Positions 21,962-58,206 of a stretch of DNA of 64,000 nucleotides are shown here, piece by piece. The notes beneath the pieces were generated by a model. It saw nothing but the letters and a program-made list of their open reading frames with translations, did not search any database and was not told the origin of the DNA. Within the stretch, counting starts at the first letter, position 1; each line of letters starts with the position of its first letter. The stretch comes from Mycobacterium sp. BK086 (GTDB lineage: Bacteria > Actinomycetota > Actinomycetes > Mycobacteriales > Mycobacteriaceae): positions 186,001 to 250,000 of the forward strand of contig SNWL01000007.1 in NCBI GenBank assembly GCA_004362315.1. Direction: 5' to 3'. Both the position numbers and the translations under genes were made by a program.

Positions 21962-22789
21962 ATGGCACAGAAACCTGTCGCGGATGCGCTGACCCTGGAG
22001 CTTGAGCCCGTTGTCGCCGACAACCTGACTCGCTTCCTGGAAACCGCCGACGAGTGGTACGGCCACGACTACGTGCCGTTCGACCAGGGCGAGAACTTCG
22101 CGTTCCTGGGCGGCACGGACTGGGACCCCTCCCAGGTGACGCTGCCCTCGGACGTCGTCGACGCGTGCGAGATCCTGCTGATCACCAAGGACAACCTCGC
22201 CGGGTATCACCGTGAGGTGGTCGAGCACTTCATCCTGGAAGACAAGTGGGGCCGCTGGATCGGCCGCTGGACCGCCGAGGAGAACCTGCACGCCATCGCG
22301 CTGCGCAACTACCTCGTCGTCACCCGCAATTTCGACCCGACGGCCAATGAGGACGTCCGCGTTGCCCACGTCATGCGCGGCTACCGGGCCGACCAGTTCA
22401 CCCAGATCGAGACGCTGGTGTTCATGGCGTTCTACGAGCGGGCGCATGCGGTGTTCACCCGCAACCTCGAAGCCAAGGTCGACGAGCCGGCTCTGAAGGG
22501 TCTGGTCGGCCGGATCGCGAGCGACGAGGAACGGCACGAAGAGTTCTTTGCCAACCTCGTCGCGCATTGCCTGCAAACTCATCGCGACTCGACGATCAAC
22601 TCGATCGCGCGTCGCGCGGTGGGCTTCGGCCTTGTCGGCGGCGACATTTTCGAGTACCAGGACAAGCTGCAGAACGTCGCGAAGGCCGGCATTTTCGACA
22701 TCGACGCCTCGCGGCAGGTCGTCTCGGATCGCATCGAGGCGTGGGGCCTCGGGGACGAGTCGGTCCTCAAGAAATTCGTTCGCTCATAA
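21962..22789 (+). CDS. desA2: Acyl-ACP desaturase DesA2
   Basis: A protein of 275 residues, equal to M. tuberculosis DesA2 (Rv1094). It belongs to the soluble di-iron acyl-ACP desaturase family, proposed to introduce double bonds into mycolic-acid precursors. The di-iron ligand motifs are visible as EENLH (about residue 103-107) and DEERHEE (about residue 188-194). The N-terminus MAQKPVADALTLELEPVV is the one known from Rv1094, which fixes the start at 21962 despite an open frame upstream. No ribosome-binding site is present; a leaderless promoter inside a palindrome precedes it. Confidence 0.94.
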   Translation: MAQKPVADALTLELEPVVADNLTRFLETADEWYGHDYVPFDQGENFAFLGGTDWDPSQVTLPSDVVDACEILLITKDNLAGYHREVVEHFILEDKWGRWIGRWTAEENLHAIALRNYLVVTRNFDPTANEDVRVAHVMRGYRADQFTQIETLVFMAFYERAHAVFTRNLEAKVDEPALKGLVGRIASDEERHEEFFANLVAHCLQTHRDSTINSIARRAVGFGLVGGDIFEYQDKLQNVAKAGIFDIDASRQVVSDRIEAWGLGDESVLKKFVRS

Positions 22790-57211: not shown

Positions 57212-57775
57212 ATGGGAAAACTCAGTTACGACACAACGGTATCCCTCGACGGCTACGTCAACGACGCGGACGGCGACTTCCAGTGGTCGGGCCCGGACGA
57301 TGCGGTGTTCGCCGTCCACGTCGAGCGCATGGCGGACGTGACGATCGAGGTGCTGGGGCGCAAGACGTTCGCGCTGATGCAGTACTGGGAGACCGATCCG
57401 GTCGACGAGGTCTGGGGTCCGGCTGAGCAGGAGTTCGCCAGGCGCTGGCGCAACATCGACAAGGTGGTGGTGTCGTCGACACTGACGAGTGAGATCGAGA
57501 CAGACCGAGTCCGCCTGCTGCCCGACCTGAGCCTGGACGAGCTACGCCGCATCGTCGACAGCACGGCGGGCGTCGTCGAGATCTTCGGGCCCACCACCGC
57601 GGGCCCGGCCATCCGTGCCGGCCTGGTCGACGAGTTCCAGTTCTTCGTGGTCCCCAAGGTCGTCGGCGGCGGTCTGCGCGCCCTGCCCGACGATGTGCGG
57701 CTCGACCTCAGACTCGCCGACCATCGCGTCTTCGACAACGGCACCGCCCAGCTGCGCTATGTGCGTGGTGACTGA
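57212..57775 (+). CDS. RibD C-terminal / dihydrofolate-reductase-like protein
   Basis: A protein of 187 residues. It has the fold of the RibD reductase domain: KLSYDTTVSLDGYVNDADGDFQW at the N-terminus, VLGRKTFALMQYWE with the cofactor arginine, and VEIFGPTTAGPAIRAGLVDEFQFFVVPKVVGGGLRAL toward the end, where the family normally has a GG-x2-hydrophobic pyrophosphate loop. NADPH-dependent reduction is likely; the substrate is not known, and it is not expected to be riboflavin or folate enzyme proper. The start has no good ribosome-binding site. Confidence 0.85.
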   Translation: MGKLSYDTTVSLDGYVNDADGDFQWSGPDDAVFAVHVERMADVTIEVLGRKTFALMQYWETDPVDEVWGPAEQEFARRWRNIDKVVVSSTLTSEIETDRVRLLPDLSLDELRRIVDSTAGVVEIFGPTTAGPAIRAGLVDEFQFFVVPKVVGGGLRALPDDVRLDLRLADHRVFDNGTAQLRYVRGD

Positions 57776-57837
57776 TCTGACGTTGCCATTGGTCTGCCGC
57801 TGTGACAGCTTGGTAGGCAGAGCCTGAAGATTGGCTT

Positions 57838-57879
57838 CCGGACGATGGGTGCCGTACCCGGTGTGCGACAAGACGGCCC
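57838..57879 (+). ncRNA. Guanidine-III (ykkC-III) riboswitch
   Basis: Three conserved blocks occur in the right order: CCGGACGA (57838-57845), GCCGTACCCGGT (57851-57862) and GACAAGACGGC (57867-57877). They match the guanidine-III consensus from actinobacteria that I recall. P1 pairs CCGG 57838-57841 with CCGG 57858-57861, and the pseudoknot stem pairs GCCGT 57851-57855 with ACGGC 57873-57877. The AGGAG ribosome-binding site follows directly (57880-57884), and the SugE/Gdx start codon is 13 nt after the element. Control of translation start by guanidine is the expected mechanism. Confidence 0.88.
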
Positions 57880-57891
57880 AGGAGCATCGTC

Positions 57892-58206
57892 ATGTCGTGG
57901 TTCATTCTCGTCATATCCGGTGTGCTCGAAGCGGTTTGGGCAACCGCGATGGGCAAATCCGAGGGTTTCAGCAAGCTGACGCCGAGCGTGGTCTTCTTCG
58001 TGGCACTCGCCGCCAGCATGGGTGGATTGGCCTACGCCATGCGGGATCTGCCCATCGGTACCGCCTACGCGGTGTGGGTGGGCATCGGCGCGGTGCTCAC
58101 CGTGGGCTACGCGATGGCGACCGGGGACGAGACGGCATCGGTGCTGAAATCGGTGTTCCTGGTGATGATCATCGCCGGCGTGGTGGGGCTCAAGCTCGTG
58201 CACTAA
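57892..58206 (+). CDS. sugE: SMR-family guanidinium exporter (SugE/Gdx type)
   Basis: A protein of 104 residues with four transmembrane helices. The conserved glutamate of SMR transporters is Glu13 in VISGVLEAVWATAMGKSEGFS. The Gdx-type signatures are LTPSVVFF, the GTAYAVWVGIGAV helix and the final VGLKLVH. Gdx proteins are dual-topology dimers that exchange guanidinium for protons; other SMR proteins export quaternary ammonium drugs. The guanidine-III riboswitch in its leader strongly supports the guanidinium assignment. AGGAG lies 7 nt before the ATG. Confidence 0.92.
   Translation: MSWFILVISGVLEAVWATAMGKSEGFSKLTPSVVFFVALAASMGGLAYAMRDLPIGTAYAVWVGIGAVLTVGYAMATGDETASVLKSVFLVMIIAGVVGLKLVH

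Follow-up and report, generated by a model that had tools for sequence, protein, structure and literature searches.

A Guanidine-III (ykkC-III) riboswitch aptamer lies directly in front of a Gdx-type SMR gene in the 64,000-nt stretch of Mycobacterium sp. BK086 DNA analysed here (the window), and the adjacency of the two is conserved in related genomes. The element very probably acts as a riboswitch that controls a guanidinium exporter with an ON response, where guanidinium as the ligand and the ON direction would carry over from published work on the class. An initial annotation, made from the letters alone, had placed such a riboswitch before an exporter gene and named an Infernal covariance-model search as its check. 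This search, run over the whole window (cmscan, Rfam 15), bears the assignment out: RF01763 (Guanidine-III) matches positions 57817–57882 of the forward strand over the entire model (1–67 of 67) with 60.6 bits (E=4.7e-10), the gathering score being 36 bits. It is the single RF01763 match at E<=0.001 in the organism's own genome (6.93 Mb), where Guanidine-I gave 0 matches. The only other gathering-level Rfam match in the window is to the ASdes sRNA (22280–22346, reverse strand, 52.3 bits, cut-off 40).

Anatomy of the element and the gene behind it

The element opens with a 5' hairpin (57820–57837), in which GAGCC (57820–57824) faces GGCTT (57833–57837), followed by the pseudoknot helix (57838–57861) formed by CCGG (57838–57841) and CCGG (57858–57861) with a conserved ACGA strand between them. 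This layout is the one seen in the crystal structure, which the excerpt of PMC5696562 describes as an H-type pseudoknot with two stems in a 41-nt RNA. Mapping the Rfam structure line onto the sequence places helix P2 at 57849–57879 (57849–57855 with 57873–57879, one U-C mismatch). Both stems named initially, CCGG/CCGG and GCCGT (57851–57855)/ACGGC (57873–57877), are present, the second as part of a P2 that extends to 57849/57879. The interval first assigned to the element, 57838–57894, catches the start of the pseudoknot and misses the 5' edge, which lies about 20 nt further 5' with the hairpin; the hairpin was left out because the interval begins at the pseudoknot. The adjacent ribosome-binding site was recognised correctly: the Shine-Dalgarno sequence GGAG (57881–57884) follows the last P2 base after 1 nt and stands 7 nt 5' of the ATG (57892), itself 9 nt from the end of the RF01763 match. 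The core letters CCGGACGA, GTACCCGG and AAGACGG are kept in the window and are invariant in 47 aligned gdx leaders, so that the pseudoknot yields no covariation evidence.

The gene (57892–58206, forward strand) encodes a product of 104 residues that matches PF00893 with 74.8 bits (cut-off 23.7). Its best solved relatives, 6wk5 (78.3 bits) and 8vxu (76.5 bits), are nearly identical to each other and are listed as SMR family proteins; we take them to be Gdx-Clo and a Gdx-Clo variant, respectively. The best EmrE-type PDB chain reaches 40.8 bits. Residues 1–102 of the 104 align without gaps to 6wk5 and keep the binding-site residues E13, W16, S42, Y59 and W62, in agreement with the Gdx signatures noted from the start, although the two proteins diverge over much of their length. 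Among these residues, whose roles are taken from the available text of PMC7695847, W16 is conserved in Gdx and replaced by Gly or Ala in the Qac subtype. The original label SugE/Gdx holds in its second half: the SugE equivalog model NF008512 scores 105.9 bits against a cut-off of 126, yet it is the best of the 21 SMR models matched, and "Gdx type" is therefore the safer name. Two further PF00893 matches in the same genome lie side by side on contig 3 and score best with Qac/EmrE models, under the cut-offs of those models, which leaves the window gene as the sole Gdx-type SMR gene found in this genome. Taken together, the comparisons support the window protein as a putative Gdx-type guanidinium exporter, and this mycobacterium may, as suggested initially, meet guanidinium as a waste product or a toxin.

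Occurrence in the genus and beyond

RF01763 was found in 170 of 297 genus genomes at E<=0.001 (166 above the cut-off) in a search with stricter filters, by which some weak matches were lost. We read 91 loci, namely the window, the 30 best matches and 60 picked from the remaining listed matches. The element stands directly 5' of gdx in 51 of them, 13 of the window type with CTTCCGGACGA or a near form (group A1) and 38 with a second type of gdx leader (group A2). In 34 loci (group B) it directly precedes a ureohydrolase gene, called by a shared peptide motif. In five others (group C: L084, L089, L090, L091, L094) this motif appears 251–263 nt past the aptamer core, the gene start, judged by eye at one locus, lying roughly 120 nt after the core; no Shine-Dalgarno sequence was seen right after Guanidine-III at these five loci, and the greater distance of the gene start suggests a different read-out. 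Thus 90 of the 91 elements precede gdx or a motif-called ureohydrolase gene. The remaining one (L093) lies directly 5' of what looks by eye like a metallo-β-lactamase-fold gene, a gene type with no guanidine link known to us. Four genomes among those read (G011, G114, G180, G221) carry both exporter-type and guanidinase-like loci.

The 5' hairpin varies in its letters among these relatives while its pairing is kept, for example GAGCCT/AGGCTT, GAGCCC/GGGCTT and GAGCCTT/AAGGCTT in A1, and GTCAG/CTGAC, GTCGG/CCGAC and GTCCC/GGGAC in A2. The mean stem score over 10 unique window-type loci is 5.34, compared with 3.54 after shuffling, and the share of single shuffles that attain the group mean is 4.7% (A1), 7.4% (A2), 2.8% (B) and 28.3% (C); the last figure leaves the hairpin of group C without support. 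A tree of 125 Gdx proteins, built on only 106 columns and with many unresolved forks, separates the window-type from the other genus gdx by a single weak branch (67/37); no claim of transfer is drawn from it.

The one speB-type protein of the genus that was compared (from the B locus L009) is closest to structures listed as "agmatinase 2", 9fek (510 bits) and 7esr/7oi1 (495 bits), presumably the Nitrospira and Synechocystis guanidinases. The guanidinase GdmH was formerly annotated as agmatinase, according to the accessible part of PMC12186494. A close GdmH relative was not found in the genome of the window; the enzyme has four matches there, all at 35–38% identity. On contig 2 of this genome (G000:C2, L098:413–2457) two adjacent ureohydrolase genes encode proteins of 364 residues, ending in a His run, and of 316 residues; the best solved relatives are agmatinase 2 (9fek, 193 bits) and guanidinobutyrase (186 bits) for the former, guanidinopropionase (253 bits) and proclavaminate amidino hydrolase (247 bits) for the latter, and metformin hydrolase chains score lower. 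On contig 3 (G000:C3, L181:5822–9924) a cluster holds two DUF1989 proteins, UAAP1 (219 bits) and UAAP2 (318 bits), both over the NCBIfam cut-off, a 666-residue protein (with a chosen start) that matches positions 447–1113 of the 1201 of a urea carboxylase model at 963 bits against a cut-off of 1304, and a divergent regulator gene that by eye resembles the TetR type. Since we take DUF1989 pairs to be carboxyguanidine deiminase subunits, the cluster may serve guanidine or urea breakdown outside Guanidine-III control. DUF1989 occurs in 30 of 60 genus genomes. A weak Guanidine-II match in this cluster (L181:9334–9372, reverse strand, 22 bits, cut-off 32, E=0.69), situated 5' of a DUF1989 gene and inside the divergent regulator reading frame, is probably due to chance.

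At least 582 Gdx-encoding stretches were found in genome contigs, and 80 of these, four from mycobacteria, were examined for riboswitches in their flanks. At gathering level, 73 of the 80 carry Guanidine-III, two (L148, L163) Guanidine-II and five (L114, L134, L142, L152, L175) neither class. In some of these relatives about 330 nt separate the element from the Gdx match downstream, a distance that a preceding partner gene would fit. Similar DNA is present on seven plasmid records at 60–80% identity, in three cases (Kocuria, Nocardia, Tsukamurella) with 80% or more of the query covered.

Leader, read-out and rival readings

The space between the preceding stop codon and the gdx start (57776–57891), first described as holding little besides the element, also contains a conserved promoter-like pair at about 57783–57811, composed of a candidate −35 box TTGCCA (57783–57788) and a candidate −10 box CAGCTT (57806–57811). 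The pattern TTGCC[AG]-17 nt-nANNNT occurs within the 90 nt 5' of CCGG in 11 of the 13 window-type loci, against a mean of 0.03 in base shuffles, and a looser form in 13/13 against 0.24, figures to be read with the pattern having been fitted after viewing the same sequences and several of these leaders being closely related. A generic sigma-70 scan of 57700–57900 returned 0 promoters, which counts against the promoter reading. The spacing would put the transcript start at about 57818–57819, at the 5' hairpin of the element. In A2 a TANNNT box is present in 38/38 loci (16.2 in shuffles), mostly 26–27 nt before CCGG (28 hits); it was discarded as a general feature, being present in 2/13 A1 loci (7.2 shuffled) and 2/34 B loci (shuffled mean 15.1).

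Two analyses addressed access to the Shine-Dalgarno sequence. A covarying anti-Shine-Dalgarno strand was not found when duplexes between upstream and downstream segments of the same locus were compared with swapped ones within each group: the energies of own and swapped pairs are −10.24/−9.92 (A1), −10.14/−10.03 (A2) and −11.43/−11.52 (B), with 360, 698 and 1150 of 2000 permutations equally good, and the candidate was rejected because own segments pair no more strongly than swapped ones. Ensemble folding, which ignores pseudoknots, was run with the pseudoknot strands blocked. On average the Shine-Dalgarno sequence of the 13 window-type loci is as unpaired free (0.52) as with the pseudoknot (0.51); the value for the window itself rises from 0.77 to 0.97. 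With the pseudoknot, access increases in seven and decreases in five of the 13 A1 loci, increases and decreases in 18 each of the 38 A2 loci, and increases in five and decreases in 13 of 30 B loci. Four of the 34 B loci had been dropped since the chosen start left no Shine-Dalgarno sequence, so that some of the remaining B starts may also be wrong. No consistent change in access emerges across the A1, A2 and B loci, and with no anti-Shine-Dalgarno strand either, the ON direction and the ligand are taken from the class.

The likeliest mechanism, by analogy with the literature, is an ON switch acting through translation and/or mRNA stability. Rising guanidinium would bind the aptamer, the third strand would dock and stabilise the pseudoknot, and more exporter would be made, either as the adjacent Shine-Dalgarno sequence becomes more readily usable or as the mRNA gains protection from its folded 5' end. 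The excerpt of PMC5696562 reports docking of the third strand upon binding, which corresponds to 57842–57849 here, and an affinity of 60 micromolar for guanidinium; that of PMC12186494 reports that guanidine binding to Guanidine-III frees the Shine-Dalgarno sequence and protects the mRNA against RNase E. The Thermobifida fusca element described in the former excerpt shares with the window the CCGG/CCGG pseudoknot, P2, the core and the place before an SMR gene. It differs in that 16 nt separate the 3' end of the riboswitch from the ribosome-binding site, compared with the 1 nt after P2 here, and the leader of the window has its predicted start at the 5' hairpin. A tentative and rather doubtful extension is that the riboswitch of this lineage lacks a distinct expression platform: with the start at the 5' hairpin and the Shine-Dalgarno sequence 1–2 nt past the last helix, the folded aptamer would be the whole read-out, through the ribosome site or RNase shielding.

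The same proximity could be turned the other way. With P2 abutting the Shine-Dalgarno sequence (1–2 nt in the 13 window-type loci, set against the 16 nt of T. fusca in PMC5696562), a folded aptamer could hinder the ribosome, and an intact aptamer might here turn expression off or act as a steric block; the lack of an anti-Shine-Dalgarno strand in the swap comparison also fits. We consider this very improbable, as the available text of PMC12186494 describes the class as an ON switch and the controlled gene resembles an exporter gene, whose induction would be sensible. Moreover, P1 and P2 are apparently formed under all conditions (PMC5696562, same excerpt), so that abutment alone would give no switch. 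That the RNA has shifted to a different ligand, for instance a substituted guanidine, is a still more remote prospect: the pocket has one open side and accepts methyl-, amino- and ethylguanidine as well as agmatine, as far as the excerpt of PMC5696562 goes, but the window keeps every core letter that is invariant in the 47 gdx leaders.

Relation to published systems and significance

Location of ykkC-III before emrE and speB genes has been in print since 2010 (PMC2864571, in excerpt), and the two gene classes recovered here, the SMR exporter in the window and the ureohydrolase in relatives, are the same, with no substantial difference from that account. A 2021 paper with arr as its subject, PMC8492726, reports in the portion available ykkC-III copies near arr in actinobacteria, some adjoining SMR genes, and names Mycolicibacterium; it concerns the same class in the same group of organisms. 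A ykkC-yxkD RNA is recorded for one mycobacterial type strain in the part of PMC6582537 at hand. No experimental study of a mycobacterial Guanidine-III element was found among the matches listed for open-licence papers.

The element is a sound and ordinary example of an established riboswitch class, placed in front of the gene type that usually follows it. What is new here is a conserved promoter-like pair that would, by prediction, start the transcript at the 5' hairpin, and a Shine-Dalgarno sequence that follows P2 after 1 nt. The element points to the SMR gene of the window as a guanidinium exporter and not a general drug pump. Genomes of a single genus differ in what the sensor precedes, the exporter gene in some and a guanidinase-like gene in others, and the very compact leader of the window offers a place to ask how Guanidine-III controls expression, a modest mechanistic question.
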